Made by a program: the position numbers and the translations under genes. The notes under the pieces were generated by a model. It worked only from the letters and a program-made list of their open reading frames with translations, searched no databases and was not told where the DNA came from. From assembly GCA_021646415.1 (NCBI GenBank), contig SOEU01000010.1, forward strand, positions 1 to 64,000: a DNA stretch of 64,000 nt, read 5' to 3'. The DNA comes from Candidatus Brocadia sp. (lineage in GTDB: Bacteria; Planctomycetota; Brocadiia; Brocadiales; Brocadiaceae). Shown here in pieces: positions 224-14,639 of the stretch. Each line of letters begins with the position of its first letter. Within the stretch, counting starts at the first letter, position 1.

Positions 224-586
224 TCATTCTTTATTCTCTATTTTATTTATCTTCTTGGTCAACATAGCTCGTATTTCCTCACAGATTGCCTCTCTCTGAG
301 CAAAGGTATCTACCGATATATAGTTAAGTCTCTTTAATTTCTCATACCAATCTATACTTTCATTGGCAGATCCTCTGGATACATATAAATAATGCTCATA
401 CTCCTTACCTTTTCGCCTTCCATAACCTTCTGCTATATTTGCACTCACAGAAGAAACGCTCCTTAAGACTTGATTTGATATTATCCTGGCAACTTCGGTA
501 TTTGGAAACTTTTCAGCATCCTTAACAACATCCTCAAATAAACTCATTGCTTTTTGCCATACTACTAAATCTCTGAAATCATTCAT
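224..586 (-). CDS. Four-helix bundle protein (S23/IVS family)
   Basis: A 120-residue protein of the small four-helix-bundle family first known from intervening sequences of 23S rRNA genes (TIGR02436-like). Characteristic features are the opening MNDFRDLVVWQKAM and the central SNQVLRSVSSVSANIAEG followed by GRRKGKEYEHYL. The start at 586 is chosen because AGGAAGGG lies just upstream; an in-frame extension to 646 is a lysine-rich, unlikely N-terminus. The molecular role of this family is not established; the fold is a pentamer-forming helical bundle in solved members. It sits between two copies of a 54-bp repeat inside the decayed distal end of the CRISPR array, which is an unusual location and suggests it arrived as a passenger. 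Confidence 0.85.
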   Translation of the reverse strand: MNDFRDLVVWQKAMSLFEDVVKDAEKFPNTEVARIISNQVLRSVSSVSANIAEGYGRRKGKEYEHYLYVSRGSANESIDWYEKLKRLNYISVDTFAQREAICEEIRAMLTKKINKIENKE

Positions 587-688
587 ATTGATCCCTTCCT
601 TTCTCCTTATTTTATCTTTTCTTTTCACCTTCCTTTTCCCTTTCACTCTGCCCTTTCTCTTTCACTCCGCCTTAAGCGGGCCGTCTCA

Positions 689-823: not shown

Positions 824-1463
824 GTCTCAATCCCTTATTCATCAGGTCAATGATTCACACATGAGGATGGGAATGATGTCCCTCATTTATTTAATGTGTC
901 TCAATCCCTTATTCATCAGGTCAATGATTCACACAGAAAGTCCAGGTATCATGGACACCGCCTACGAAGTCTCAATCCCTTATTCATCAGGTCAATGATT
1001 CACACAGAAAGTCCAGGTATCATGGACACCGCCTACGAAGTCTCAATCCCTTATTCATCAGGTCAATGATTCACACTCAGCAATTGAGGTCTTTGCGGCT
1101 TTATATCGCTCGCGTCTCAATCCCTTATTCATCAGGTCAATGATTCACACTTTATGATTTTTTCGTACTGTATCGGTTGCGCAATCGGTTGCGGTCTCAA
1201 TCCCTTATTCATCAGGTCAATGATTCACACGCCAAGGCACTCCACTTCAGTTCGCGGTTGATACTGAAAAAGTCTCAATCCCTTATTCATCAGGTCAATG
1301 ATTCACACGAAAGCGAATTGAGGGCACTCCAGGCAGACAGCGAGACGCGTCTCAATCCCTTATTCATCAGGTCAATGATTCACACGGGAGGGAGCAGCAT
1401 TATCAAGGTGGCGGTCTAGTACGGGCGTCTCAATCCCTTATTCATCAGGTCAATGATTCACAC
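824..1463 (-). CRISPR. CRISPR array, 9 repeats of 37 bp, 8 spacers
   Basis: Nine identical 37-bp repeats begin at 824, 898, 969, 1040, 1114, 1194, 1272, 1349 and 1427 (plus strand starts GTCTCAATCCCTTATTC, ends ATGATTCACAC). Spacers are 34-43 bp. Read on the minus strand the repeat ends in ATTGAGAC, which fits the 8-base 5' crRNA handle (ATTGAAAC type) left by Cas6, so transcription is inferred to run right to left, as for the cas genes. The leader is therefore at 1464-1671 and the decayed repeats at 128 and 683 are the old end. Two neighbouring spacers, 935-968 and 1006-1039, are identical, so one repeat-spacer unit was duplicated. No spacer source can be named from this sequence. Confidence 0.97.
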
Positions 1464-1671
1464 GGTACCCCTTTCAACCATAATAAACACAAATACTTAC
1501 AAGGCCATTTTCTGTAACCTCCTTTTTTGAGCACCATCTTTTTCTATCACCTCCTTTAAATTTGGACAAAAATTTATTATAATTATCCACAAACACATTA
1601 TTTACAGTTTTTTCTGTAACCACCCCCTCTTTTTGCAACGTTTTCGAGTTTCGTTAACCCATTGCAGTACC
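1464..1671 (-). promoter_or_regulatory. CRISPR leader with likely promoter
   Basis: An AT-rich, gene-free 208-bp stretch between the newest repeat and the end of cas2. On the minus strand it has a TATAAT-like -10 box (plus 1576-1581), which would start transcription about 100 bases before the first repeat; the matching -35 is weak. A 12-bp direct repeat, TTTTCTGTAACC, occurs at 1508-1519 and 1610-1621 and could be a leader protein site. Leader identity rests on position and repeat orientation. Confidence 0.65.
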
Positions 1672-1947
1672 TTACACGATGTAGACATCCTCCACTCTGG
1701 TTACTTTCCCCTGCCCGATAACGTGAATAACCCTTTCACAATTTGCACAGATGGTATATATTCTCACACTGTCGTCCTCCTGCAAGACAATTTTCTTAAT
1801 TCTGGTCACCATTTTGTTCAGGAGACTGCTATCCAATATACATTCAAAGACGCTATATTGCACCCTGTCTCCAAAATCCTTAAGCACCTTTGCCAGTTTC
1901 GTTCTCCTTCCGGTGTCAGGTATGTCATAAGAGACGAGATACAGCAT
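1672..1947 (-). CDS. cas2: CRISPR adaptation protein Cas2
   Basis: A 91-residue Cas2, the structural partner that holds the Cas1 integrase dimers together during spacer insertion. It begins MLYLVSYDIPDTGRRTKLAK, the usual first strand with the conserved Asp followed by the arginine-lysine helix, and has the FECILD strand typical of the ferredoxin-like fold. The start at 1947 gives the normal family length; the open frame continues upstream to 2103 but overlaps cas1 and lacks Cas2 features. cas1 ends one base upstream, so the pair is cotranscribed. The leader and array follow directly downstream. Confidence 0.95.
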   Translation of the reverse strand: MLYLVSYDIPDTGRRTKLAKVLKDFGDRVQYSVFECILDSSLLNKMVTRIKKIVLQEDDSVRIYTICANCERVIHVIGQGKVTRVEDVYIV

Positions 1948-1948
1948 A

Positions 1949-2947
1949 TCATACCTCCTGCAGAAAAGGGATATATCGTTCATTATTCTGAATACTGGCA
2001 GCCAGTTTTTCCGCCTGAAAACGAAAACACTTTCGAAACGTGGTATTTTCTTTGGTTTCTTGTCGAATAAACTCGCGATTGAGCATGCCCTCGTATTCCA
2101 CAAAATAACGCTTCAATGCCTCACGCCTGAGATATACTCCTTCATTGGGGTTTGAGTAAAAGTCCTCCTGTCCGAAAACCCTGTTGTTTACGAGATTGAG
2201 CGTAAGCCGGTCGGCTACTGGGGCTCGAAATTCCTCCATGAGGTCAGAAGCGAGGGATGCCCGCCCATAGTCAATACTATGATAGTAAGCAAGGTATGGA
2301 TCAAAACCCAGTCCATCGAGGAGCGATGATAGTTCACTAAAAATCATAGTATAGCTCAGGGAAAGGAGGGCATTGACGGGATCGGTGGACGGATGCTTCT
2401 TTCTTCCCGGAAAACTGAATTCACCCAGGATCATTCTGCCAAAGGCATCAAAATAAACCTTCGCCGCATTCCCTTCCATGCCAAACAACTGATTGATATA
2501 GGTAGCCGATTCCACATCTTCAAGCTTTGTTTCAAGAGCGGCAATCTCCGTTTCAAGGTGAAGCTTAGGATGATTATACGAAAACAGGCGGACAACATTA
2601 TAGCAATTCATGATCTTCCCAGCCACAATTGCCTTTGAGAGCATGAGCCTGAAGTCATTATCCCAATATTTCTTGAACTGTTGGAGACGCAGGGTAATGT
2701 TTTTGGGTGTAGGAGAGGTTATCTGGCCTATGAGTTTGCCCGTTCGTGTGAGAATGGCCATCTCTATGCCATGTTCAAAGAGTTCATGCACGGCCTGAGT
2801 GGTAAACTGGACGTTCCCGAAGATAAGCACGGCATCTATTTTGTGACACTGCACTTCAAGAAGAATGTTATCATCCTTCTGGACAATAAGCCGGTCACCG
2901 CTCTTGCGTAAAACAGAGTTCTGTTCGGTCAGATAAAGGTTAGCCAC
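1949..2947 (-). CDS. cas1: CRISPR integrase Cas1
   Basis: Cas1 is the metal-dependent integrase that inserts new spacers at the leader end. The protein is about 332 residues, the usual size, so it is not fused to the reverse transcriptase upstream. Counting from the alternative TTG at 2953, the catalytic residues are Glu160 (GMEGNAAK), His225 (YYHSIDYGR) and Glu240 (DLMEEFRAPVADR). I choose GTG at 2947 because AAAGG lies 8 bases upstream and the product then begins like other Cas1 proteins (ANLYLTEQNSVLRK). It sits between the DUF559 gene and cas2 in the same direction. The adaptation module therefore is RT, DUF559, Cas1, Cas2. Confidence 0.95.
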   Translation of the reverse strand: MANLYLTEQNSVLRKSGDRLIVQKDDNILLEVQCHKIDAVLIFGNVQFTTQAVHELFEHGIEMAILTRTGKLIGQITSPTPKNITLRLQQFKKYWDNDFRLMLSKAIVAGKIMNCYNVVRLFSYNHPKLHLETEIAALETKLEDVESATYINQLFGMEGNAAKVYFDAFGRMILGEFSFPGRKKHPSTDPVNALLSLSYTMIFSELSSLLDGLGFDPYLAYYHSIDYGRASLASDLMEEFRAPVADRLTLNLVNNRVFGQEDFYSNPNEGVYLRREALKRYFVEYEGMLNREFIRQETKENTTFRKCFRFQAEKLAASIQNNERYIPFLQEV

Positions 2948-3087
2948 AATCAAAACCTTTCTTTGGAGTAGTGCAGTACTTCTTTCCTCTGATCTTATCC
3001 TTGCCTACATCTTTCATCTTTACATTTGCTAAAAACGCAAATGAATGAACATTGCCCCTCCTTGCGAAAGAGGAAATCGGAAGCAAA

Positions 3088-3492
3088 TTATTTCTTTACC
3101 TCCCCTTTGTCCCCTCCTTGCAAAGGAGGGGATTGAGGGGTGGTTTTTGTAATAATATCGTGTAAGACACCTTTTATATTTTTGACTATGTCATTATTTG
3201 TATATCGTAACACCTTAATTCCCAGAGCCTCTATCTCTTTTTGTCTTTGCCCATCAGAAACAATCCGAGGTTCATAGTAATGAACCCCACCATCAACTTC
3301 GATTGCCAATCTGCGTTCCGGGCAATAAAAATCGACCGTATAATTATTAATCCCATATTGCCTTCTGAATTTTAAACCGTTAATTTGTTTGCCTTTTAAT
3401 TTTGACCAAAGTAATATTTCCGCTTTTGTCATCTTCTTTCGTAAATACTGCCTTTTCTTTGTATGTTCTTTTTTGTTAAACATTTCTGTCAT
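3088..3492 (-). CDS. DUF559 (Vsr-like) endonuclease-domain protein
   Basis: A 134-residue protein with the DUF559 fold, related to very-short-patch-repair and restriction endonucleases. Visible landmarks are LRKKMTKAEILLW, LKFRRQYGINNYTVDFYCPE and LAIEVDGGVHY, where VDFYC and EVDGG carry the acidic metal-binding residues. DNA cleavage is inferred from the family, not proven. It lies between the reverse transcriptase and cas1 and may have been picked up by the adaptation module or be a passenger. Its last 18 residues (TTPQSPPLQGGDKGEVKK) are encoded by a dispersed palindromic repeat, and the purine-rich stretch before ATG 3492 that serves as ribosome-binding site comes from a second copy of the same repeat. 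The true C-terminus may thus have been replaced. Confidence 0.8.
   Translation of the reverse strand: MTEMFNKKEHTKKRQYLRKKMTKAEILLWSKLKGKQINGLKFRRQYGINNYTVDFYCPERRLAIEVDGGVHYYEPRIVSDGQRQKEIEALGIKVLRYTNNDIVKNIKGVLHDIITKTTPQSPPLQGGDKGEVKK
3097..3147. repeat. Dispersed palindromic repeat (REP-like), copy a
   Basis: Contains the 9-bp stem CCCCTCCTT/AAGGAGGGG (3111-3131) followed by GATTGAGGGGTGG. The same unit occurs at 3502-3547, 13515-13548 and, shortened, 13993-14027. Here it forms the coding sequence for the end of the DUF559 protein. Confidence 0.8.
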
Positions 3493-3501
3493 ATTTAACA
3501 A

Positions 3502-3547
3502 CCTCCCCTTTGTCCCCTCCTTGCGAAGGAGGGGATTGAGGGGTGGT
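3502..3547. repeat. Dispersed palindromic repeat, copy b
   Basis: Near-identical to copy a, with stem CCCCTCCTT/AAGGAGGGG separated by GCG. It ends 10 bases upstream of the DUF559 start and on the minus strand supplies GGGGAGG as its ribosome-binding site. A third, weaker palindrome of the same kind (CCCTCCTTCG..GGAGGGG) follows at about 3569-3590. Confidence 0.75.
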
Positions 3548-3639: not shown

Positions 3640-4581
3640 TTAGGATGAGGATGGGCTATTACTTCGCTTCTTGAAATAATCATCTAAGTTTAATGGACCA
3701 GGATAAAACAGGACTTTTTTCTCCTTCTTTGGGCGATCAAAAGGTACCATAATCATGCTTCGCACGAAGGTAACGCCGAGGAATTTGAATCCGTCTTCAA
3801 AGTTAAGTATTTGTTCTTCATCCAGCTTTAAAAGAAGTTTTCCAAGGGCCTGTTTTGATAATTGAAGTGCATTCTTTGCCTCTTCTGGTTTTTTGCAAAG
3901 AATGACAAAGTCATCAGAATACCTGATTAATCTATATCCTTTCTTTAACAATGCCTCATCCAATTCGTCCAGAAACAAGTTGGCCAGGATGGGAGAAATG
4001 GGTGAACCCTGCGGAATACCTTTTTCTAATACAGTTAATGATTCACCATCCCAGATTTCGGCCTTCAGCCAGAGTTCTATAAGTTTTTGGATATAGGGAA
4101 TAGAGACATATTTTTTGAATTTTGCCAGCAGAAGGTCATGATCCACGCTGTCAAAAAAGGCGTCTATGTCGGCATCCACTATCCAATGATAACCATGATC
4201 ATAATATTCCTTAATCCTATAAACAGCCTGTTTCACTGAACGACCTTTCCGATAAGCAAAACTGCAATCCTCGAATTCCCGTTCAAGAATAGGCTCAATG
4301 GCTTGTAAAACGGCTGCCTGGACAACCCTGTCTCTCACCGTCGGAATGCACAGTGCCCTAGCCTCACCATTCCCCTTGTCAACCAGGATCTTCAGCAGCG
4401 GGAGGGGTGAGTACGTTTGCTCAGCCAGTTCCCTTTGCATGATTCTGAGGTTTATATCCAGATTGCCCTCATATTGTTCAATAGTAACTCCATCCACCCC
4501 CGCACAACCGTGATTCTCCTTAACAGCCTGAAAGGCGGAATACCGGGATGTAAGGTTAATAGCGAAGTTGTTCATGCTCAA
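3640..4581 (-). CDS. CRISPR-associated reverse transcriptase, stand-alone
   Basis: A 313-residue reverse transcriptase of the group II-intron-like lineage. Finger and palm blocks are in order: LCIPTVRDRVVQAAVLQAI (77-95), FEDCSFAYRKGRS (103-115), DADIDAFFDSVDH (136-148), GIPQGSPISPILANLFLD (188-205) and the catalytic YSDD (221-224). There is no intron-maturase thumb, no DNA-binding or endonuclease domain, and no intron RNA around it. It starts inside the last codons of the Csx3-like gene (ATGA overlap at 4578-4581) and is followed by DUF559, cas1 and cas2, so it belongs to the CRISPR operon. In characterised type III systems RT-Cas1 fusions or partners let RNA be captured as spacers; the same role is inferred here but with separate polypeptides. 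Confidence 0.9.
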   Translation of the reverse strand: MSMNNFAINLTSRYSAFQAVKENHGCAGVDGVTIEQYEGNLDINLRIMQRELAEQTYSPLPLLKILVDKGNGEARALCIPTVRDRVVQAAVLQAIEPILEREFEDCSFAYRKGRSVKQAVYRIKEYYDHGYHWIVDADIDAFFDSVDHDLLLAKFKKYVSIPYIQKLIELWLKAEIWDGESLTVLEKGIPQGSPISPILANLFLDELDEALLKKGYRLIRYSDDFVILCKKPEEAKNALQLSKQALGKLLLKLDEEQILNFEDGFKFLGVTFVRSMIMVPFDRPKKEKKVLFYPGPLNLDDYFKKRSNSPSSS

Positions 4582-4820
4582 AATGGATTGTGGTCAAATA
4601 TCAACACGTCTCCGGTTACAGGAGACCGATATGTCAGTTTCTTCGCCTTGCCATGTAGCGCATGGGCAACAGCCAGATAAAGCCACACAGGGGCTTTGCC
4701 CGTTAAAACTATTTCATTGCCTTCGCCAGCCAGGTCAACGACTTTTTTAATATAATTTGACAAGTTTGAAAGCTTGGCGGTTTCAGAGAAAAATGTGCTC
4801 AAGTCTATTTCTTTAACCAT
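4578..4820 (-). CDS. csx3: Csx3-like protein, candidate ring nuclease
   Basis: A short protein (80 residues from ATG 4820; a TTG at 4838 would add six) resembling Csx3. The diagnostic part is VLTGKAPVWLYLAVAH followed by YRSPVTGDVLIFDH, matching the Csx3 pattern of G-K/R-x-P-I/V-W-L, A-H and a DP-x-x-G-x-V-V strand. Csx3 proteins studied elsewhere degrade cyclic tetra-adenylate, so this one may switch off the signal made by Cas10. It is shorter than the roughly 110-residue archaeal Csx3. It begins 11 bases after the membrane CARF gene stops and its stop overlaps the start of the reverse transcriptase, which suggests translational coupling. Function is inferred from the motif and location. Confidence 0.72.
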   Translation of the reverse strand: MVKEIDLSTFFSETAKLSNLSNYIKKVVDLAGEGNEIVLTGKAPVWLYLAVAHALHGKAKKLTYRSPVTGDVLIFDHNPF

Positions 4821-4830
4821 CGATATTGAA

Positions 4831-5724
4831 TCAACCAACCTTTGCTATATGTATCTTTGAGTAAAGCTCTAACAAATATTCACCCATTTTATCTAATATG
4901 ATTCCTGGTTTTATAGCAAGCGGAATAACGTTGTATTTTCCACTTTGCTGTTCTACATATTGAATATCTATAGAGGAATCTAGTGCACCGAAAATCAATC
5001 CAATAGTAATTGATTTGGTTCCACCTGAAATGTCCACAATAATATCGGTGCTTTTTAAGCTTATATGGTTCAGATTTTCTTTTGAATAAATTTTAGAGAG
5101 TAAAGATTTTACTTGTTCAATCAATTCAAGTTCGCCACTTTCAGTTAAGTGGCAAATATTCTTGTGTCCATCTCGATCATAAATCTTTGCATTAGGCATG
5201 AATTTATTGAGAAATTCTTTAATACATTCCCTGTAAGGCATACTATCTTTAGTTGCTAATGGCCATACATATTGAAGAACATCTTTATGGTGATATAATC
5301 CCTTAAACAGTTGGCCAATACTCTGTTCTTTATATAGCAGGCTTATATCAGGTTGTTTTGTGGCTAAAATTATTTTATTTATTTCTTCAGGTGGTTTCTG
5401 TGGTTTACTCAAGGACAAAACCATTCCCCTATGTTGATTCACAACCTGCGAAGTAGTCTCGTCCATAGAACGCTGATTTAAAATTGGTTTGAATTTTAGA
5501 TATATATAACTTATCCATGCACAAAAAGAAAAAAACGGAAACAGATTAATGAATATGTTCAACCAATTGAGGACAAGAGGTCTTTCCGCAAAAACAGTCA
5601 ATAGCAGTTTCCAAAATTCGTATAGACCATTAGTCGCTATGCCTAACCAGGCAAGAGTACCAATACCGGTAATAATAATCTTAGGAGTAATTCTGTCGAT
5701 TCCTAAAATCTTTAGTGCTGTCAT
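4831..5724 (-). CDS. Membrane protein with CARF-like domain, candidate effector
   Basis: A 297-residue protein with two hydrophobic helices near the N-terminus (about residues 14-33 and 52-77) and a soluble Rossmann-like part from about 98. MVLSLSKPQKPPEEI (101-115) looks like the first strand and loop of a CARF sensor, and IIVDISGGTKSITIGLIFGA (228-247) carries the D-x-S-G-G-T-K motif that contacts cyclic oligoadenylate in CARF proteins such as Csm6 and Csx1. No HEPN, nuclease or protease motif is present, so the membrane part is the only visible output. The gene overlaps csm5 by ATGA and is followed at once by the Csx3-like gene. By analogy with Cam1, a membrane CARF protein that depolarises cells, I infer a cOA-gated membrane effector. 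Two helices and length differ from Cam1. Confidence 0.75.
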   Translation of the reverse strand: MTALKILGIDRITPKIIITGIGTLAWLGIATNGLYEFWKLLLTVFAERPLVLNWLNIFINLFPFFSFCAWISYIYLKFKPILNQRSMDETTSQVVNQHRGMVLSLSKPQKPPEEINKIILATKQPDISLLYKEQSIGQLFKGLYHHKDVLQYVWPLATKDSMPYRECIKEFLNKFMPNAKIYDRDGHKNICHLTESGELELIEQVKSLLSKIYSKENLNHISLKSTDIIVDISGGTKSITIGLIFGALDSSIDIQYVEQQSGKYNVIPLAIKPGIILDKMGEYLLELYSKIHIAKVG

Positions 5725-7073
5725 TTTTCATTCTCCACTATTAATTTCACCCATCCTAGCGTGTCCTGTTTGTTGTTTAATAGGTTAACAACCCGCCTTG
5801 TCTTTGGGAAATTACCTGTGTAACTAGTATTTTTCGTGGCATGGCATAGGATATTATCATAAAGGGTTTTATCTTTGTCTTTGACTAACAGTCCCATCGT
5901 AATACTAAAATAACCTTCGTTTTTCCCTATGCGGATAGCAGGGCTGGTTGGGGTATTCTGATGCTTGATACTATGAAGCATAGTAATTATTTGTGGCTTA
6001 TTGAGATTTGTAAAATAGTCTATTTCCTCTCTTAAAAGCCTATCTGTAAATTGGTAACAACACTGAAATACATTTTCTATATCTGAAACCACCCACTTTT
6101 GTTCAGGAGTAAAACCGAGTTTATCAAGAACAGTTCTATTTGTTCTGTTGTTCTCCAATTGAGAGAACTGACACGTAAAGATTTGATCTTGTGTACAGAG
6201 TTCCTGGAAAAGAATGATATCTGTTAAATTACCTTGTGTGTCTCGTTTTTTGGTATTTTCTACCTTCATACTCGAAACAAATAAACATTGAAAAGGGTCT
6301 TTTAACTCGCTGTCTCCTACTTGAAAAACTTTCAGAAGATCATACTTTGCATCACTGTTGTTATTTACCCTGAAAAGCTTGTTTTGCAAGTTCTCTTCAA
6401 TTTTGCCCACTTCTTTTATAAAAATATTTTTAATGTCATTTATTCTTATTTTTGGATATTCTTCATGCCGGATTTTCTTTGTTATCTCATTCAGTCTCTT
6501 TTCACCGAATAGTCTTTTTAATTCCTCTTTTTGAATTTGTTTAAGTTCCGATATTGATAAGTAACTATTACCCTTTCTACCACAAGACGAAAGAATCAAA
6601 AATGTATTTCTAAATTTATTTTGAAGTTCCAACAACTGTTTTTTTAACCATACATAATTTTCATTGCTGCCTAATAAATGATATGCTATTGCCGTCCTTA
6701 TTGCCCCTTTTATTTCTGTACCAGGAATATAAGGTCTATTGTTTTGCTTGATAAAGCAATCAATATCACGCAGATTTCTTTCGGCGGAATAGTTGTTGAG
6801 GGTATATATGGCAACTTTTTTGAATTCGTTTAAAAGTTGAGGCTTGTTGAGTTCAGACTTACAAAATTTAAACCAACTTGGATACTTCTCTGATACAACC
6901 CAATCCATAAAAGATTGCAAGTCTTTCTGGTTTAATATCGTTTTTATTCGATCAAAGTTCATAACAAATACTCTCTTTGGAGTTGAGAAAATATCTTCAA
7001 CGTATGACAGCCCGTTATACTTCTCTCCATTCCCAATATGTATTGGAGATAAGGTTTTAATTTGAAGTTTCAT
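5721..7073 (-). CDS. csm5: Type III-A effector subunit Csm5
   Basis: A 450-residue RAMP protein that caps the crRNA 3' side of the Csm complex. It opens MKLQIKTLSPIHIGNGEKY, the usual Csm5 start with the SPIHIGNGE strand-loop, and has the glycine-rich RAMP loop PYIPGTEIKGAIRTAIAYHL near residue 115. Near the end, SPAIRIGKNEGYFSITMGLL is typical of Csm5 C-terminal parts. It overlaps csm4 by four bases (ATGA) upstream and the membrane CARF gene by four bases downstream. Besides complex assembly, Csm5 recruits crRNA-trimming nucleases in studied systems. Length is slightly above average for the family. Confidence 0.93.
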   Translation of the reverse strand: MKLQIKTLSPIHIGNGEKYNGLSYVEDIFSTPKRVFVMNFDRIKTILNQKDLQSFMDWVVSEKYPSWFKFCKSELNKPQLLNEFKKVAIYTLNNYSAERNLRDIDCFIKQNNRPYIPGTEIKGAIRTAIAYHLLGSNENYVWLKKQLLELQNKFRNTFLILSSCGRKGNSYLSISELKQIQKEELKRLFGEKRLNEITKKIRHEEYPKIRINDIKNIFIKEVGKIEENLQNKLFRVNNNSDAKYDLLKVFQVGDSELKDPFQCLFVSSMKVENTKKRDTQGNLTDIILFQELCTQDQIFTCQFSQLENNRTNRTVLDKLGFTPEQKWVVSDIENVFQCCYQFTDRLLREEIDYFTNLNKPQIITMLHSIKHQNTPTSPAIRIGKNEGYFSITMGLLVKDKDKTLYDNILCHATKNTSYTGNFPKTRRVVNLLNNKQDTLGWVKLIVENEK

Positions 7074-8125
7074 CTTGAACCTCCTATATTGCCAAAGACA
7101 GGAAAGGCAAGTCCGTTCTGATAAATCTTCTGTCTGTTTATTTCTTTTACAACAGGAATTCTTCCGTAAAATTCTCTTTTTTCGTTAGCTTCAAAACATG
7201 AGCCTTCTTTCAGATACATGACCTTAGACTTCCATACATCTTTACCTTTGAATTCTGCCTCTGAATCAACCTTTGAGCGATACGGGAATATTTCATAAAA
7301 CATGGCTGGACTCTCTAGATTTATCTGTTTTACATCAGGAATATACCTGGAAAGGGTGAAAAATTTGCGTGAGTTGTCATCTCCTATGGACACTTCGTTC
7401 AAAATATCTATCTTAAACCTTCCCTTCCCAACAGAGCGATTACCGCCAATACCCTTGTCTTTGAGATAACGGAAAACTGGCCTAAAGAAATCTATCTCAT
7501 TAGTTTTCATTAAAAAGTGTAGTTTAAATGCAGGACTTGTAAAATATTCTTGCTGATAAAAGGTTTGTCCTTCTCCACCGGTGGACATAGTCAATCGATC
7601 TGTGGAATTTTTCTGTACAGCCATACTTTTTGATCCTGGGTTTAACTTTTCAAAAATAGTCTTATATTCTTCATCATCCATAAGTAATTTGCCAGTAAGT
7701 TTAATACCTCCATTATAAAAAATCTTAAACAATTCACCTTCAGAAGTACCGTTCAATATTTTCATAAATAAAGAGGCCGATACATACTCTGCCTTCTTGA
7801 ATTCCTTATAACGGGAGATAATACACACTATCTCTTTCTTTGTCTGCGCCATCTTGTTAATATTTGAGGCAGAAATGCATTCTAAGATTGGCCTTGGATA
7901 AAAAGGTATTGCCGTGTTTGCTTCTTCAATGTATGGAAACGTGGACGAGATAACGAATTTTGGATTTAACTGGAATTCATGCAGTATATCCACCAATGAG
8001 TTTTTATCTGAGCTATCTTGGTATATCCTTCTTATTCCCCAGCAGATCGCACCAAATAGGGTATCTGACGAAGGAAGGCTAGAAAAAGAGGAAGAAGGAG
8101 TAAGTTTTATTTGATAAATTTTCAT
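7070..8125 (-). CDS. csm4: Type III-A effector subunit Csm4
   Basis: A 351-residue RAMP protein that binds the crRNA 5' handle and contacts Cas10. Landmarks are MKIYQIKLTPSSSFSSLPSS and DTLFGAICWGIRRIY at the start, a central dense basic/hydrophobic region, and the glycine-rich GIGGNRSVGKGRFKI loop (about residues 225-240) shared by Csm4/Cmr3 proteins. Its stop overlaps the csm5 start and its start overlaps the csm3 stop, each by ATGA, so the complex subunits are probably made in step. Confidence 0.92.
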   Translation of the reverse strand: MKIYQIKLTPSSSFSSLPSSDTLFGAICWGIRRIYQDSSDKNSLVDILHEFQLNPKFVISSTFPYIEEANTAIPFYPRPILECISASNINKMAQTKKEIVCIISRYKEFKKAEYVSASLFMKILNGTSEGELFKIFYNGGIKLTGKLLMDDEEYKTIFEKLNPGSKSMAVQKNSTDRLTMSTGGEGQTFYQQEYFTSPAFKLHFLMKTNEIDFFRPVFRYLKDKGIGGNRSVGKGRFKIDILNEVSIGDDNSRKFFTLSRYIPDVKQINLESPAMFYEIFPYRSKVDSEAEFKGKDVWKSKVMYLKEGSCFEANEKREFYGRIPVVKEINRQKIYQNGLAFPVFGNIGGSR

Positions 8126-9006
8126 TTCTGCGCCTTTATTGGGAAAATAGTATTAAAATTTATATGAATATCTCTTGGCGTTTCGTTACCGCTCTGGTTA
8201 ACCACAGTCTCATCTTTGCCTTGGATATAATAAGCCATTTCTCTTTTATAAATTTTTATCTTTTCAAAAACTACCTTCCCAGAACCTCTGCTTCCACTTC
8301 CGCCAAGGGCACTGTCCTCAAGGAGCATCATCCCTTCAAAGACCTTTTTAATTTTCTGTTCATCCTCCTCTTTATAAATATCAAAAAGCATCTCAACTTC
8401 AAATACTGAATCGGCTGTAACCCTTTCCATCGGTCTCGGATTTGCTTCAGACGTCAGTCTGTTGATAGTATTTTCAGTTTTTATTTCCGTGTAAATTTTT
8501 TCGCCGAAGTTGATTTCCCACCTCTCAACAGTATCTTTTTTAGGAAAACTATCACGCACAGTAAGGCGCGTTGGTTCTTTAACTGCCGATGCTGCCGAAC
8601 AGCCAAATACGATACAGACATCACACGTACCACAGTCACATGGCTTTATGGAAGGGGACATTCGATCAAGCTCTTCTTGTAATTTATTCTTTTTTACAGG
8701 ATTGTTTTCACCCGAGATTTTATCTATCAATGCTTTTCTCTTTGTTTCAAATTCATCAATTTGGTATTCAGTACAGGTTAAATTGTTTGCTCTTTTTGTG
8801 GTCCACTCAAGCAAACTTCTTATCTTCCCTTTTAGTGACGAGCCTGGTATATAGGGATAACCTGTAATAGGGTCTTTAATTACTGGGTTTTCCATCCCCC
8901 CTATATCAAATCCCTCATCCGTTCCACCAATATGTAATCCAGTAATACAACGCATATCTCCCTTGATGATATATTTGCCAGAAAATTTGTAACTATTGTT
9001 TGACAT
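8122..9006 (-). CDS. csm3: Type III-A backbone ribonuclease Csm3
   Basis: A 294-residue RAMP protein that forms the Csm backbone and cuts target RNA every six bases. GLHIGGTDEGFDIGG and PVIKDPITGYPYIPGSSLKG are the family signature. In Streptococcus thermophilus Csm3 the cutting residue is Asp33 in the loop before SPVIKDP; the aligned residue here is Glu39 (GGMENPVIKDP), so the chemistry at the active site may be altered. A cysteine group, CDCGTCDVCIVFGC near residue 125, is a likely zinc site. The start at 9006 is set by GGGAGGAG seven bases upstream; a longer frame to 9054 lies inside csm2 and is rejected. It overlaps csm2 by 14 bases. Confidence 0.94.
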   Translation of the reverse strand: MSNNSYKFSGKYIIKGDMRCITGLHIGGTDEGFDIGGMENPVIKDPITGYPYIPGSSLKGKIRSLLEWTTKRANNLTCTEYQIDEFETKRKALIDKISGENNPVKKNKLQEELDRMSPSIKPCDCGTCDVCIVFGCSAASAVKEPTRLTVRDSFPKKDTVERWEINFGEKIYTEIKTENTINRLTSEANPRPMERVTADSVFEVEMLFDIYKEEDEQKIKKVFEGMMLLEDSALGGSGSRGSGKVVFEKIKIYKREMAYYIQGKDETVVNQSGNETPRDIHINFNTIFPIKAQK

Positions 9007-9442
9007 GAGATACTCCTCCCTTTTTATCCATTTCTCTTTTCTTATGATATGCAATGACTGCCGTTAACAAGTTTACAAATCTTTTAAAATCCACAACTGT
9101 CTTAATCTTGTTACTAGACAAACATATCTTCATAACTTCATAAAAGTCTCTTGTTATTAAGCCCCTTCCGTAACTATAAGCAAGTTCGGGCATAAGTGGA
9201 TAAAACCCTCTGGGGTCAACCGGATCATTATTTTCTCTACCTTTTAGTTCTACTGTTTCTATCTTTTTTATATGTCCAAAAAACTTCCTTATCTGGGTAA
9301 ATTTCATTTCCCCCCTTTCTCCAGCTATAATATCAGCAATTTTCCCTTCAAGAGCATAATCCTCAGGTTCTAGCACGGAAAGTGTTTTAAGGCTTTCAAG
9401 ATGCTTTTTTACATCTCCCATTGAATTAAAAGAAATCATCAT
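8993..9442 (-). CDS. csm2: Type III-A small subunit Csm2
   Basis: A 149-residue helical protein, the small subunit that lines the crRNA-target groove opposite Csm3. The C-terminal helices with FYEVMKICLSSNKIKTVVDFKRFVNLLTAVIAYHK match the Csm2 pattern, and KFTQIRKFFGHI is the usual first helix with basic residues. The start overlaps the cas10 stop (TAATG at 9442), preceded by AAGGGGG. A second ATG follows immediately, so the protein may begin one residue later. Confidence 0.9.
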   Translation of the reverse strand: MMISFNSMGDVKKHLESLKTLSVLEPEDYALEGKIADIIAGERGEMKFTQIRKFFGHIKKIETVELKGRENNDPVDPRGFYPLMPELAYSYGRGLITRDFYEVMKICLSSNKIKTVVDFKRFVNLLTAVIAYHKKREMDKKGGVSHVKQ

Positions 9443-11859
9443 TAATCCCCCTTTCTTGATTTCAACAAGGCATAGCTTGCTGGTATTCTAATTTTTCTAA
9501 AATATCCGTTGCCAACCGTTAGTAATTTCTCTTTGAGATATTCTTTCAATTTTATTTCTCCACTCGTTATTTTTGCATCCTTTTTAATATTCCTTTCCAT
9601 TTGATAAATTAATGCTGGAATATAATTGAGGTCATCCCCTGATTCATACTGTTTATGTTTCCTTAAAAGTCCATGAATAAAACCCCTAGGCAAACGATCT
9701 TCTTTTTCAACAGCGGTAATTGCCTCAAAAAACATTTCTCCGCAATCGAGAAGATTATCAAAACCAATAGATTCTCCATCCATCCACTCAACTGTTTCTC
9801 CAAAAATAGTTATTCGCCTTCTCCCTTTATCCTTTGACGATTCAAGTGCATCACCAGCAGCCTCTACCGCCAAGCTTATAGGATACTTGGGTTTGCAAAA
9901 AAATATACCGGCAGAGATATTTATATCAACATTATTACAGGTATATACTTTAAATTCGTCACGAATCTTCTTTGCAAGAACTGGCATCTCACTCCACGGA
10001 CCAACAATCATGAGGTCATCTCCACCAGAATATACAATATAAAAGATGTTTTCTATCTTATCGGCTTTTTCTCCCCAACCAGCCTTATGGGCATCCTTTT
10101 TCCATTCTTCAAAAACTTTTTTACAAATATTATTCAGGTATCCACCAAAAAACCAATCCATCCCCCTGCTTAAGGCAGCAATTCGGGATATAGATTTTTG
10201 TCCTTCAGGAAGTCCAATGGCAAATATAAGTCCAAGGTAATCCACATCCATCTTAAGGATGCCAATCCTCTTATCGCCTATGCTCATATCTGCTATAGTC
10301 TCAAAGGTTAAAACCCTATCCTTTAGTGCCTGCTTTTTGCCATCTTCCTCTTCTTCTGTTTCTTGCTCAAAATCCTCCTTTGCTATAGGGGCGGCATTAC
10401 CAATGAATCTGAAATTGCCAATAGTCTCATTCATCATTTGAATAGTTAAAACATCTGGAAGTTCATTGTATTTGTCAGTATATTCATTTGCTGATAAAAG
10501 ATAAACATTTCCAAACTCACCAAACTCTATGTCAACACCCTTCATCGAGTTATTGGGTCTTGAGAGAAAGGCTAAATAGCAAGTTTTGGGCAACTTGCTC
10601 CCTATTTCATGGTGTTTTTTGCATAATATACATACCTCATCATTTTCCCCTTTTTTTACAAGTGTTGTATTGCAAGACCTGCAAACTCTAATCTCTTCCT
10701 CTGGTTTTCTATCTTCCAACCAAAACCAATTCTCACCCAAAAACTCTTTACTCTTCCTTTTCTTAACCAATGATAACTTGTCATCTAGAGTCTTTAAGAG
10801 ATTAGAATAGTCCTTGAGGTCATTACGGTCGGCACTTACTGAAACCAGCACGAGTCCTAATTCACCGTTGTATTCTTTCAACAGCCATGTATTTATCTGG
10901 GTTAATATTTTACCAATATCATGTTGAATTTTATCTGTATTAGGTATCAGCATTTCAAATCTGCCACCACCGCAAAAGAGGAGATGAGGCGTTGCCAGAA
11001 ATAATTTATTAAGGATGTAAGTAGCCATTACTTCTTGCAGTAATACTAAATAAAATGAACGCCCTCTTAACCTCTTAGAAATACCACCAATACCTTGAGT
11101 GCTTGTTATTTTGTAAATAAATTTCTGGATGCCTGAAATATCACCACTAAGAAGCAAAAATTCATTCCCATCTTTCTCACCACTTAACTTTTTAACAAAT
11201 AAACATCCTGCTATTGCAGAGGTTGTTTTAAGATGGTCAAATAGAGAAATGTCCGACTCACTTTTGTAAGCTTCACTCGGTATGCACCATGTATATTTTT
11301 GGAGAAGTGAATAAAGAGTGTTTAAATAGGAATGTGTGTTAAATGCTAGGATATTTTTGACTTCCAAAGCAAAGTCTTCCCACAATTTTTTATATTCATC
11401 TTCAAGATTTTGTTCAGGGAGCTTACAAGGAAATAAATCATCCTTTTTTAGGGATAGAGGTTTCAGGTGGTGGGAATATTCATTTATTTCCATCCCATTA
11501 TTGTAAAGAGATATTTTTCCAAAAACTGACCAAAGTCGTTCTTTAGATGGGTCTCCAGTTTCTTCTGCATCAAGACTAATTCTTTCCATACCAGCAGATA
11601 AGGCATCTGCCAAGGTAATAAATTCAGCATGGTCATGATGTGTGTTTATTGCAAACGCTATTTTCTCTTTTTCTTCCTCTCCAAATAGAATTCGTATCTT
11701 TTTAGCAAAATACTTTTGGTAACATTTTAGTCCAAGAGAGGCATGATCTCTAGCTTTTCTTTCTTCTTTGTCTAATCCTCTTTGATAAAACTTCCCAATA
11801 TCATGGAGCAGTCCTGCAAGCACTACCGTCTGATATTCCCTTTTCTTTTTTTCGTCCAT
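9442..11859 (-). CDS. cas10: Cas10/Csm1, cyclic oligoadenylate synthase
   Basis: The 805-residue large subunit of the type III-A complex. An N-terminal HD nuclease domain shows LLHDIGKFYQRG (His19-Asp20) and THHDHAEF (73-80). LSGDISGIQKFIY (237-249) opens the first palm, a four-cysteine zinc finger lies at 393, 396, 410 and 413, and the second palm has YSGGDDL with GGDD at 612-615, the site that makes cyclic oligoadenylate from ATP when target RNA is bound. Both HD and GGDD residues are intact, so single-strand DNA cutting and second-messenger synthesis are both expected. The products would be read by the membrane CARF protein and cleared by the Csx3-like protein downstream. csm2 follows with overlapping stop/start. 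Confidence 0.96.
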   Translation of the reverse strand: MDEKKKREYQTVVLAGLLHDIGKFYQRGLDKEERKARDHASLGLKCYQKYFAKKIRILFGEEEKEKIAFAINTHHDHAEFITLADALSAGMERISLDAEETGDPSKERLWSVFGKISLYNNGMEINEYSHHLKPLSLKKDDLFPCKLPEQNLEDEYKKLWEDFALEVKNILAFNTHSYLNTLYSLLQKYTWCIPSEAYKSESDISLFDHLKTTSAIAGCLFVKKLSGEKDGNEFLLLSGDISGIQKFIYKITSTQGIGGISKRLRGRSFYLVLLQEVMATYILNKLFLATPHLLFCGGGRFEMLIPNTDKIQHDIGKILTQINTWLLKEYNGELGLVLVSVSADRNDLKDYSNLLKTLDDKLSLVKKRKSKEFLGENWFWLEDRKPEEEIRVCRSCNTTLVKKGENDEVCILCKKHHEIGSKLPKTCYLAFLSRPNNSMKGVDIEFGEFGNVYLLSANEYTDKYNELPDVLTIQMMNETIGNFRFIGNAAPIAKEDFEQETEEEEDGKKQALKDRVLTFETIADMSIGDKRIGILKMDVDYLGLIFAIGLPEGQKSISRIAALSRGMDWFFGGYLNNICKKVFEEWKKDAHKAGWGEKADKIENIFYIVYSGGDDLMIVGPWSEMPVLAKKIRDEFKVYTCNNVDINISAGIFFCKPKYPISLAVEAAGDALESSKDKGRRRITIFGETVEWMDGESIGFDNLLDCGEMFFEAITAVEKEDRLPRGFIHGLLRKHKQYESGDDLNYIPALIYQMERNIKKDAKITSGEIKLKEYLKEKLLTVGNGYFRKIRIPASYALLKSRKGD

Positions 11860-11885
11860 TTTTTCCTCCAGTATTATCGCTTATC

Positions 11886-11983
11886 GTGACCGTGTACCGT
11901 ATCCGTTGAAACACACCCCTGCGCCCCTTATTCGACAAGCTCATGACAAGTCTTGTTTGAAGGAAATTACGGACACATCTCAC
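11886..11983. repeat. Long direct repeat, copy 1 (copy 2 at 12440-12574)
   Basis: Shared blocks are CGTGACCGT, GAAACACACCCCTGCGCCCC, TCTTGTT and GGAAATTACGGACACATCTCA (copy 2: GGGAATTACGGACACGTCTCA). Each copy ends at the stop codon of a minus-strand gene: the MNT-type nucleotidyltransferase here and the 55-residue ORF in copy 2. It may be a 3' element that travels with nucleotidyltransferase cassettes. Confidence 0.7.
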
Positions 11984-12318
11984 GATAATTTAAGCTTTAT
12001 TCCCGTCCTCTTTATCTCCTCCGCCAGCATCCCTCCATCGTAAAAATCTTCGGGTCTGAAAGGGAGTGGTTCTATACGACTATCAATCTTTCGTCTCAGT
12101 GGCACAATCCTTCTCCGGTCTTCAAATCGATCTCCGGTAAAATCTGGTGAAACCAGCACAACGTCAATATCGCTCCATTCCTTAGCCGTACCCTTTACAA
12201 AAGAGCCAAAGAGAATTGCCTCTCTTATTTTGATCCCCTTTTTCAAAAAGGTGGTTTGCAACCTTCCATTATTGGGGGGATTAAGGCGCAGTCTTTTTGC
12301 GCCGAATCCACCTTCCAC
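11980..12318 (-). CDS. MNT-type nucleotidyltransferase with altered N-terminus
   Basis: A minimal nucleotidyltransferase of the MNT/KNTase fold. AILFGSFVKGTAKEWSDIDVVLVS has the G-S-x-x-x-G and S-D-x-D metal-binding motif. Typical members begin about 20 residues before this motif; here the first part of the frame (from GTG 12318) is encoded by a dispersed GGTGGATTAAG repeat, so the natural start was probably overwritten. An internal TTG near 12250 could be used. No HEPN partner gene is adjacent, although the pair MNT-HEPN is the common toxin-antitoxin form. It lies between cas6 and cas10 and is flanked by long direct repeats, so it looks like an inserted cassette. Confidence 0.7.
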   Translation of the reverse strand: MEGGFGAKRLRLNPPNNGRLQTTFLKKGIKIREAILFGSFVKGTAKEWSDIDVVLVSPDFTGDRFEDRRRIVPLRRKIDSRIEPLPFRPEDFYDGGMLAEEIKRTGIKLKLS

Positions 12319-12362
12319 ATTTTTCTAAATGGTGGATTCGCTTCGCTTAATCCACCCTACCC
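12273..12362. repeat. Dispersed GGTGGATTAAG repeat, copy 1
   Basis: A 90-bp unit with GATTAAGGCG, GCCGAATCCACCTTC, a TTTCTAAAT or TTTGTAAATA centre and GGATTCGCTTCGCTTAATC before CCACCCTAC. Another copy lies at 38611-38700. The ends are imperfect inverted repeats (GGATTAAG.. and ..CTTAATCC). This copy overlaps the 5' end of the nucleotidyltransferase gene. Confidence 0.8.
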
Positions 12363-12439
12363 ATACTGAAGATTCTAGCCAGTATTGAACGCTTTTCCTC
12401 TGTTTTTCACCCATTTTTTTCTTCATTATGTGTTCGTTG

Positions 12440-12574
12440 TTCGTGACCGTACTCGGTGTCCTTGAAACACACCCCTGCGCCCCTCTTTTCAGAGGGAAAT
12501 ATACTTCCTTGCCTCTCGTTCAACTGGGTGCTCACGACGAATCTTGTTAAAAGGGAATTACGGACACGTCTCAT
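12440..12574. repeat. Long direct repeat, copy 2
   Basis: Matches 11886-11983 in four blocks, with about 35 extra bases in the middle (AGAGGGAAATATACTTCC region). Together the two copies bracket the MNT-type nucleotidyltransferase gene. Confidence 0.7.
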
Positions 12575-12738
12575 GAAAAAAGCCTTTCCCTTATCCTTTT
12601 TGCCTTTTCCGACATCGCCTTGTGGAAAAACTCCATCTGTGCCTCAAGCCACAGAAGCTTTTCCCGCACAGGCTTTTGTCTGTATGCTTCTATATCTTCT
12701 TTGGATTTGTAATAAAGCAAGGGTGGTTTATTTTTCAT
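12571..12738 (-). CDS. Small protein paired with nucleotidyltransferase (55 aa)
   Basis: An unannotated-size ORF of 55 residues beginning MKNKPPLLYYKSKEDIEAYR and continuing KPVREKLLWLEAQMEFFH. The R-E-K-L-x-W-L-E-x-x-x-E-F pattern is common in small partners of nucleotidyltransferase-like genes. Its ATG lies 11 bases inside the 3' end of the preceding nucleotidyltransferase gene, so the two are translationally coupled. A two-gene antitoxin-toxin-like unit is plausible but not shown. The stop codon falls at the end of the second long direct repeat. Confidence 0.7.
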   Translation of the reverse strand: MKNKPPLLYYKSKEDIEAYRQKPVREKLLWLEAQMEFFHKAMSEKAKRIRERLFS

Positions 12739-13231
12739 ACTTCCATTCCTCTTTAATCTGTTTCAGATAAAATACATCTGCAATATCCTGCGGTCTGCCT
12801 GACTTTTCCTTCATCTCGATGAGATATTTCAGGGATATTACAGGAATGATTATCCTGCCTGCCTTCATCTCCTCTCTTGCTTCATATACCTTTTTGAAAT
12901 CGAATGGTAATTCAACAAAAATATCAAGGAGAAAGAACGGATTTTTTGGATCGAATAAACTAAAAACCATCATCCCTTTATCTTTTATCCAGCTTTCCCT
13001 ATTTTCCCTTTTAATAAAGTCATCGAGATTTACCGGAATTTTTGGTTTAAAATTCAGCTCTTTCATAACTGCAACAAATCTATTGATGTTATTTTCTTCC
13101 AAATCGACAACGAGATCGATATCAGCCGTAGCCCTTTCGATGCCGTAGAGATTGACAGCAATACCTCCGGCAACCAGATAGCGAACCTTAGCTTTATTTA
13201 ATGCTGAAAATAGACTTTCAAATTTGATCAA
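12728..13231 (-). CDS. Nucleotidyltransferase-fold protein (DUF6036/AbiEii-like)
   Basis: A 167-residue protein of the large nucleotidyltransferase superfamily. VRYLVAGGIAVNLYGIERAT has the G-G-x-A loop and ADIDLVVDLEE the D-x-D metal motif; SLKYLIEMKEKSGRPQDIAD is the conserved C-terminal block found in DUF6036 and AbiEii-like proteins. Many such proteins are toxins that modify tRNA or other nucleotide targets, but the target cannot be read from sequence. The start is TTG 13231, supported by GGAG six bases upstream. It is followed by an overlapping 55-residue ORF. It sits between cas6 and cas10 without obvious CRISPR role. Confidence 0.8.
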   Translation of the reverse strand: MIKFESLFSALNKAKVRYLVAGGIAVNLYGIERATADIDLVVDLEENNINRFVAVMKELNFKPKIPVNLDDFIKRENRESWIKDKGMMVFSLFDPKNPFFLLDIFVELPFDFKKVYEAREEMKAGRIIIPVISLKYLIEMKEKSGRPQDIADVFYLKQIKEEWKYEK

Positions 13232-13556: not shown

Positions 13557-14639
13557 CTATAAAATCTCATACTTCCCCAACCCAAAGGATGTCCCTTTCC
13601 CCACATGCACATACTCTCCTAACTTTAGCAAGGGTATAAATTCATTCAAATCGCCCTCATATGAAACGGTACCCGTAACACCACCCAGCGACATCCATTC
13701 TTCCTGCCGTGTGGAATAGCGCTTCCAGTCAAACCACTGAATGTCCGATGCTGTCTGCCTTACTGTCTTTGCTTTTTCAATAAGACCTTTAAAATCTAGT
13801 TCCAGCTTTTCGCCACAATGGAAATAAGATAAAGAGGAGATACGACGCAAGAGGTTTCTGATAAGGACATGGAATTCGATTTTGTCGGTTATATGGCCAT
13901 CAAAACGCAGGCGTAGCGGGGTTAATAGCGAAATGGTTATTTTGTTGTTATGGTTATTTCCATGAGAACTACCCTGTTGAGGCAAGTTTTTGACCCCGCC
14001 TTTATCCTCCCCTTCGTAAGGGGAGGAAACTGCGCTGTTTTTACCTTGCAATGATGAGAAAGTTTTATTGCATTTTGCCATAGAGCGGTTTTCCATATTT
14101 TCCTGGACAAATTGGCGGGCTTGTATGATGGGATAATGGTTTGTGAGTGTTTGGTCTTTACTGTTGTAAATCTGAACAGACTCGTTTTCTAAACCGATGC
14201 CTTCCACCTTTAGCAGGTCGTATTTACCCCTGCCCTGTCCGACCCCCTGTTTTCCCAGTTCGGTAAAGGTATAGATAAAATAGGGCAGGTAATCGATGGC
14301 TTGACCTATGAGGATCAGGTGAAAGGTGAATGCTTCGCCTGGTGCGAAGGATTGTTTCTTGTCTGAAGGCGGTTCAATAACAAAGGGGTGGGGTACTTTT
14401 GGATAAAGCCGAAGTATCTCGGTATCTTGTGGAGGAGGGGTCTCAAAGATGTACGAATAAATGCACTTTTGTTTCAGGAGACACTCATCACATCCCTTGC
14501 CTTTTATCACACAGACAACACGTTTAAAGGCATATCCAAAACCGCCACGAAAGGCAGCGCCTTTATAGGTAGGAAAGCGTATGTGCTCTTTGGCGCAGAC
14601 GGTAAATCTGAACTTTGCCAGTCGGAATGTATTGAGCAT
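13557..14639 (-). CDS. cas6: CRISPR repeat endoribonuclease Cas6
   Basis: A 360-residue Cas6, the enzyme that cuts the CRISPR transcript inside each repeat to leave an 8-base 5' handle. The PF10040-type layout is visible: FPTYKGAAFRGGFGYAFKR near residue 23, the cysteine group CDECLLKQKC, and the C-terminal glycine-rich GEYVHVGKGTSFGLGKYEI. It lies 1.7 kb upstream of cas10 in the same direction and is separated from it by two nucleotidyltransferase modules. Residues about 205-217 (SSPYEGEDKGGVK) are encoded by a dispersed palindromic repeat inserted in frame, so the protein carries an extra flexible loop. No active-site histidine can be assigned with certainty by eye. Confidence 0.92.
   Translation of the reverse strand: MLNTFRLAKFRFTVCAKEHIRFPTYKGAAFRGGFGYAFKRVVCVIKGKGCDECLLKQKCIYSYIFETPPPQDTEILRLYPKVPHPFVIEPPSDKKQSFAPGEAFTFHLILIGQAIDYLPYFIYTFTELGKQGVGQGRGKYDLLKVEGIGLENESVQIYNSKDQTLTNHYPIIQARQFVQENMENRSMAKCNKTFSSLQGKNSAVSSPYEGEDKGGVKNLPQQGSSHGNNHNNKITISLLTPLRLRFDGHITDKIEFHVLIRNLLRRISSLSYFHCGEKLELDFKGLIEKAKTVRQTASDIQWFDWKRYSTRQEEWMSLGGVTGTVSYEGDLNEFIPLLKLGEYVHVGKGTSFGLGKYEIL
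13993..14027. repeat. Palindromic repeat inside cas6, copy d
   Basis: CCCCGCCTTTATCCTCCCC and TTCGTAAGGGGAGG are a shortened copy of the dispersed repeat. It lies within the cas6 reading frame without breaking it. Confidence 0.75.

Follow-up and report, generated by a model that had tools for sequence, protein, structure and literature searches.

A predicted CARF membrane effector and a Csx3-fold partner with a rewired active site in a type III-A CRISPR operon of Candidatus Brocadia sp.

The DNA analysed here is a stretch of 64,000 nucleotides (nt) from Candidatus Brocadia sp. (contig SOEU01000010.1, positions 1 to 64,000; hereafter the window), and it holds a type III-A CRISPR operon with two accessory genes, one encoding a candidate membrane effector of 297 amino acids (aa) and the other a Csx3-like protein of 86 aa. 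On the minus strand the gene order is cas10-csm2-csm3-csm4-csm5-[297 aa]-[86 aa]-reverse transcriptase (RT)-(DUF559)-cas1-cas2, followed by the CRISPR array, while cas6 lies upstream, separated from cas10 by two nucleotidyltransferase-like genes. The operon looks complete. The genes csm2 to csm5 are all present, and Cas10 keeps both its HD motif (LLHDIGK) and its SGGDD motif. As an earlier reading of the sequence alone had proposed, the GGDD of Cas10 is intact, the ATG of the 297-aa gene overlaps the csm5 stop as ATGA, and a Csx3-like gene follows. The latter may start at a TTG (4838) that overlaps the effector stop, or at an ATG (4820) situated 10 nt past that stop; the second start would give a protein of 80 aa, and in the alignment several homologues start near its equivalent. 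The Csx3-like stop lies 2 nt ahead of an RT ATG. The best explanation of the two genes, and one we consider rather probable, is that they encode a two-helix membrane effector gated by cyclic oligoadenylate (cOA) and a Csx3-fold regulator with a rewired active site.

The two N-terminal helices, the DISGGTK motif and the absence of a nuclease domain noted in the sequence-only reading were all recovered in the 297-aa protein. Hydrophobic segments occupy residues of about 12-34 and 50-68, and the AlphaFold2 (AF2) model, built from 9 aligned sequences, places the transmembrane (TM) helices TM1 at 14-45 and TM2 at 54-82, the CARF domain at ~96-275 with DISGGTK at residues 231-237, and a C-terminal helix at 273-296. 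The mean predicted local distance difference test score (pLDDT) was 72.7, with values mostly between 74 and 94 in the CARF region and about 60 in the helices. The profile search against CARF families, suggested in that reading, gave two PADLOC models at E about 1e-23, namely CARF8--CARF_TM (E 3.7e-23) and CARF_2M, described as 'CARF, 2 TMs' (E 5.5e-23); the CARF_2M match spans residues 23-271 and so covers the helices together with the CARF domain. By profile, the protein falls in these two catalogued CARF-TM families. No Pfam or NCBIfam match exceeded its cut-off, and no nuclease domain was found. A Csx1/Csm6 ribonuclease identity was rejected, as the profile scans returned no HEPN match. Likewise, a sensor of the Cam2 type was rejected because Cam2 has a REC domain (PMC11229360) and the domain modelled here is a CARF.

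In the AF2 model, two long helices at the N-terminus are joined to a domain of the Rossmann type. In the Foldseek search of the PDB the best match was Cam1 (E 3.2e-7), and Cam1 chains made up eight of the first nine matches. VIA-align against cA4-bound Cam1 (cA4, cyclic tetra-adenylate) gave a Z of 14.8 and a root-mean-square deviation of 2.8 over 139 aligned residues, with 15% identity over the aligned CARF domain. The first places are a near-tie within one Z unit (Cami1 14.9, Cam1 14.8, Csm6 14.6), and Z was above 14 for Cam1, Cami1, Csm6 and Can2. A PDB sequence search with the effector alone returned nothing useful, and the one with its profile returned weak CARF matches, the best being Sso2081 (E 0.0018). 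Cap1 was not among the PDB matches listed, from which nothing follows. According to the model, the protein has a Rossmann-type CARF fold with a motif of the D-x-(S/T)-G-G-x-K type; AF2, Foldseek and VIA-align all give the CARF core whose absence would have spoken against the first reading.

One position in TM1 is polar or acidic in all 11 aligned sequences, the window included (4 N, 5 D and 2 E), and corresponds to N32 in the window protein (P0001). It is reminiscent of the conserved pore-lining D17 of NhCam1, which tolerates S and N (PMC10808066), and may be its counterpart. In most homologues, positively charged residues precede TM1 and follow TM2; because of this distribution, both ends of the helix pair and the CARF domain are probably cytosolic.

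Relatives of the effector were found in two metagenome-assembled genomes (MAGs). In a MAG named Pseudomonadota (L001) the homologue is 64% identical in the best segment, with the end of cas6 before it and the contig end after it. In a MAG named Desulfatirhabdium (L002) the homologue is 45% identical and lies between cas6 and RT-cas1-cas2-array, and the csm2-5 and cas10 genes of the window have no match on its 11-kb contig. Searching 392 genomes from the window's phylum at the protein level retrieved the gene of the window itself and a single match that was weak and partial, while the CARF_2M profile was matched in 33 of these genomes, mostly via the CARF part of longer proteins. From 30 CARF_2M loci, we examined those whose match begins no later than profile position 43, which gave seven besides the window (L005, L006, L007, L008, L010, L011 and L014); a Csx3-like gene stands next door in six of them, the exception being L006. 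With the thresholds applied, neither of the two proteins has a relative in viral contigs, phages or plasmids. A viral, phage or plasmid origin was accordingly set aside, and it is not thereby excluded. Upstream of the CARF-TM gene, matches to the PADLOC model Mem_01, a membrane protein with six TM segments, were seen in L055 (11446-12261) and L058 (6690-8033).

Among the known systems, Cam1 (Baca et al. 2024, PMC10808066) resembles the 297-aa protein in its N-terminal membrane helix, C-terminal CARF domain, lack of an enzyme domain and type III-A context, and perhaps also in the conservation of a polar or acidic residue within the first helix. However, Cam1 is reported to have one helix and two are predicted here, so that by predicted helix number the protein is not a Cam1; the sequence-only reading, which had likened it to Cam1 with a different membrane part, agrees with this and with the Foldseek ranking. 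Cap1 (Majumder et al. 2025 preprint, PMC12642688) is described as having two membrane helices followed by a cytosolic sensor, and as sharing its III-A locus with genes for a Csx3 homologue and a DUF1874 ring nuclease, which makes it the nearest published precedent. The sensor of Cap1 is a divergent CARF-like fold with DUF4579, whereas a canonical CARF is predicted here and the Pfam scan found no DUF4579, so that by domain content the protein appears distinct from Cap1 as described. The membrane part thus differs from that of Cam1 but has a precedent in the two-helix pore described for Cap1, and since the Cap1 locus has both components, a two-helix sensor with Csx3 in a III-A system is not new as such. 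Csx23 likewise combines a membrane segment with a cytosolic cA4 sensor in type III systems, but its sensor is of another, tetrameric fold (PMC12642688). By analogy, the 297-aa effector should work like Cam1 and Cap1.

The 86-aa protein (P0002) matched Pfam Cas_csx3 (PF09620) with 27.4 bits, above the cut-off of 21, and the NCBIfam Crn3 equivalog TIGR02579 with 26 bits, below the cut-off of 55.4. Its AF2 model had a mean pLDDT of 90.4. The first seven Foldseek matches were all Csx3 structures (E 0.004-0.026), and in VIA-align the first five entries were Csx3 with Z between 7.8 and 8.2, followed by an entry at 6.5. Based on the model, the protein has the Csx3 fold.

The search of the 392 phylum genomes with P0002 gave matches in 10 genomes at 14 places. 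Two were not counted as variants, a 37-residue fragment with a stop (G354:C126:22783-22893) and the canonical protein of G219, which was counted with the canonical relatives. This left 12 variants in 9 genomes, and the genomes of L001 and L002 added one each, giving a total of 14. These were aligned with three canonical relatives (G061, G087 and G219) and a fragment of the Archaeoglobus fulgidus Crn3/Csx3 (AfCsx3). The protein shares with AfCsx3 (PMC7371418) the fold, the GxxPxWL motif and three histidines, at about 20% identity. The histidines matching AfCsx3 H57, H60 and H80 (H59, H62 and H83 in the window) are kept in all 14 variants. However, AfCsx3 D69 is replaced by Ser and R71 by Val, again in 14 of 14 (S72 and V74 in the window), and both replacements lie inside an invariant SPVTG motif of the variant subfamily; the three canonical relatives all keep DPR or DPK at these positions. 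Moreover, the AfCsx3 ligand contact R46 is replaced by K, A, S or Q. In the Csx3 variant the metal face is therefore kept and the face that makes most of the cA4 contacts is rewired. The effector with its own off-switch proposed from the sequence stands with regard to the conserved Csx3 pairing, but the off-switch itself is not secured, given the replacement of D69 and R71 in every variant.

It is possible, and we hold it tentatively, that the Csx3-like protein works as an ordinary ring nuclease on cA4 and forms a plain effector/off-switch pair, with the loss of Asp and Arg compensated nearby, e.g., by the R71 or D77 of the variants. The invariant metal-face histidines and the match of the predicted fold to Csx3 agree with this, as does the report that ring nucleases accompany 81% of Cam1 loci (PMC12409355). 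On the other hand, in AfCsx3 the D69A and H60A exchanges abolish activity and R71A and H80A strongly reduce it (PMC7371418), and here Ser and Val are invariant at the D69 and R71 positions. The candidate substitutes vary among the variants: position 71 in the variant's own numbering has R in 12, N in one and Q in one, and its position 77 has D in 12, K in one and E in one.

Less likely than this, in our estimate, is a protein that does not cleave at all and serves as a sponge, a lid or a stoichiometric subunit that joins the sensor, setting its threshold or gating it. The loss of D69 and R71 in a strongly conserved protein would fit such a role: the variants are 58-75% identical to P0002 (alignment A3), and in three pairs the nonsynonymous differences (pN 0.15-0.19) are far below the synonymous ones (pS 0.61-0.80). 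The tight gene spacing and the occurrence beside two kinds of membrane-anchored sensors point the same way, but three invariant histidines would then have no obvious job in the absence of chemistry.

A gene for a membrane-anchored sensor adjoins 12 of the 14 variants. Nine are CARF-TM genes (the window, G300 C166, G088, G049, G354 C85, G339, G370 twice and G392) and three are SAVED-TM genes (G300 C269, G354 C126 and G393), the SAVED-TM call being based on the PADLOC model name and on N-terminal hydrophobicity judged by eye. The CARF-TM/Csx3 pair was thus found in eight loci beyond the window and is conserved across related genomes. In one of these loci, the second of G370, the CARF-TM is split: L058 14167-14868 encodes the N-terminal part and 16889-17023 a piece of the CARF, followed by the Csx3 gene at 17345. 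The canonical Csx3 genes have soluble CARF nucleases as neighbours, CARF-RelE in G061 and CARF-PDDEXK in G087 and G219. The one-sided exact probability of 12/14 variants versus 0/3 canonical genes beside membrane sensors is 10/680 (~0.015) in genomes that are related; because these are not 17 independent events, the association should be read as a lead, not as proof. As for the interference modules, csm genes of the III-A type are present in the window, G088 and G339, a Cmr2-type Cas10 in L049, and Csx19 with TIGR03986 in L053, and the pair therefore occurs with different modules. In the literature searched, outside which the 2020 CARF classification lies, we recognised no mention of this exchange of residues and its connection to CARF/SAVED sensors anchored in the membrane, nor of such a sensor/Csx3 pairing other than in the Cap1 locus.

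All 12 variants scanned match the PADLOC fusion model CARF_HEPN_CSX3 (CARF2--CARF_HEPN_CSX3), which ties the Csx3 variant to cyclic-oligoadenylate sensors. It follows that fusions of the variant to a CARF ribonuclease are to be expected elsewhere; no such fusion protein was seen among the loci examined. The arrangement that this model describes and the Marinitoga Csx1-Crn2 fusion (PMC9704534) both link a sensor/effector to a ring-nuclease-type domain, but in one chain with a ribonuclease, whereas the window has two genes and a membrane effector.

An RT gene follows the Csx3 variant in 7 of the 14 loci (the window, L049, L051, L055, L057, the first copy of L058, and L078), with one gene between in L055 and L057. 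This, together with the L002 homologue, which has cas6 on one side and RT-cas1-cas2-array on the other and whose contig shows no match to the csm2-5 and cas10 genes of the window, could suggest that the 297-aa protein is a sensor tethered to the membrane and forms no pore, e.g., tethering the complex or acting with RT-cas1-cas2. We regard this as improbable, since Cam1 and Cap1 give a direct precedent for a pore and the CARF-TM/Csx3 pairs of G049 and G354 (C85) have no RT in the stretch examined.

Several observations weigh against the preferred explanation of a cOA-gated effector with a Csx3-fold regulator, in addition to the replaced active-site residues. The helix hydropathy is modest (1.55 and 1.64), the helix pLDDT is about 60, and in the L055 homologue TM1 fell below the hydropathy threshold used and only TM2 passed. 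No Foldseek match of the Csx3-like model reaches E 0.001, and PDB sequence searches give Csx3 only at E about 0.05. The effector homologues of L001 and L002 have no directly adjoining Csx3, and their genomes carry the Csx3 variant elsewhere, beside another CARF-TM or SAVED-TM. The variant of G182 lies beside a split CARF-adenosine deaminase, with a DUF559-like gene (by eye) between them, and that of G106, in a III-D-type locus, has no recognised sensor nearby. In favour of the explanation, in the window's own 3.8-Mb genome the operon's Cas10 is the sole Cas10 palm match and the 297-aa protein is the sole match, through its CARF, to the one CARF-HEPN profile searched; against it, SAVED effectors may exist elsewhere in that genome. 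Finally, the L001 copy is frameshifted near TM2 in the MAG, which, with the split CARF-TM of the second G370 locus, might indicate an effector gene that is decaying or vestigial. This we consider very improbable: the window copy is open throughout, the operon appears complete, and the comparison with L002 gave a pS of 0.82 versus a pN of 0.34. In all four in-frame comparisons (this effector pair and the three Csx3 pairs) pN was well under pS, with synonymous sites saturated in three of the four.

According to the preferred explanation, the complex would find target RNA and Cas10, with its intact GGDD, would make cyclic oligoadenylate, which the CARF domain would bind. By analogy with Cam1 and Cap1, binding would rearrange the two N-terminal membrane helices, and the oligomer would open or disrupt the inner membrane, leading to depolarisation and growth arrest; the 297-aa protein is thus most likely a cOA-gated membrane pore or disruptor. 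Its Csx3-fold neighbour would regulate the sensor, probably by handling the same messenger, and would end or tune the response. It may cleave a different cyclic oligoadenylate, use other residues, or hold the messenger uncleaved, the catalytic Asp/Arg pair being gone. The folds, the operon, the recurrent pairing and the residue changes were computed; the ligand, the pore and the direction of regulation we infer. A more specific proposal, which is conceivable though we would not call it probable, is that this Csx3 subfamily gave up cA4 chemistry and became a partner of membrane-anchored CARF/SAVED sensors, in a two-part membrane effector where it recognises another messenger or gates or buffers the sensor.

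Table 1. Positions of the CRISPR operon genes and of the array in the window.
Feature	Position	Strand	Basis
CARF-TM effector candidate, 297 aa	4831..5724	-	open reading frame, PADLOC profiles, AF2 fold
Csx3-fold protein (predicted), 86 aa, SPVTG subfamily	4578..4838	-	open reading frame, Pfam, AF2 fold
csm5	5721..7073	-	profile match
csm4	7070..8125	-	profile match
csm3	8122..9054	-	profile match
csm2	8993..9442	-	profile match
cas10/csm1, HD motif and GGDD	9442..11859	-	profile match, motifs read
cas1-linked reverse transcriptase	3640..4581	-	directly after Csx3-like gene
cas1	1949..2953	-	profile match
cas2	1672..2103	-	profile match
cas6	13557..14639	-	NCBIfam TIGR01877 40.2 bits, under cut-off 58.65
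CRISPR array	824..1497	+	37-nt repeat, nine copies

The remaining genes and repeats around the operon are described here in their own right. The cas1-linked RT is a stand-alone protein, and the order Csx3-like-RT-cas1-cas2 is also found in L051, in L058 and, with one intervening gene, in L055. Between RT and cas1, a DUF559 gene lies within 3088-3547, flanked by 56-nt repeats (3089-3144 and 3492-3547) that are 91% identical; other loci have different small guest genes inside the same operon, judged by eye to be transposase-like in L055 and DUF559-like in L056. The two nucleotidyltransferase-like genes between cas6 and cas10 (11980-13231) match NTP_transf_2 and, under the cut-off, an AbiEii-like family. 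At the degenerate end of the array, a gene of the 23S_rRNA_IVP family (224-646, minus strand; Pfam PF05635) is enclosed by exact 54-nt copies (145-198 and 689-742) that include part of the CRISPR repeat. Within the array a spacer is duplicated (898-1039), two neighbouring repeat-spacer units being identical across 71 nt. Near a Csx3 variant in L056, a split CARF-adenosine deaminase occupies two reading frames (11217-12789). The SAVED-TM proteins beside the variant are short (176-182 aa; L050 4308-5125, L057 9787-10778 and L079 5385-6167), and this compact type of membrane sensor is worth separate study.

Type III effectors of the CARF-TM kind are recognised as a group, and few of them have been tested; in the present operon, the membrane may be where the signalling arm of the CRISPR system ends. 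The Csx3 partner is the stronger lead, as it represents a branch found mostly with membrane sensors in which two residues required by AfCsx3 are swapped. If the partner is not a nuclease, the automatic annotation of such genes as Crn3 off-switches would need correcting. If it cleaves cA3, cA5 or cA6, it would be a ring nuclease acting on a messenger different from cA4 and so fill a gap to which PMC12409355 draws attention. The recurrent pairing points to a defence switch that operates at the membrane and has a specialised partner of its own.

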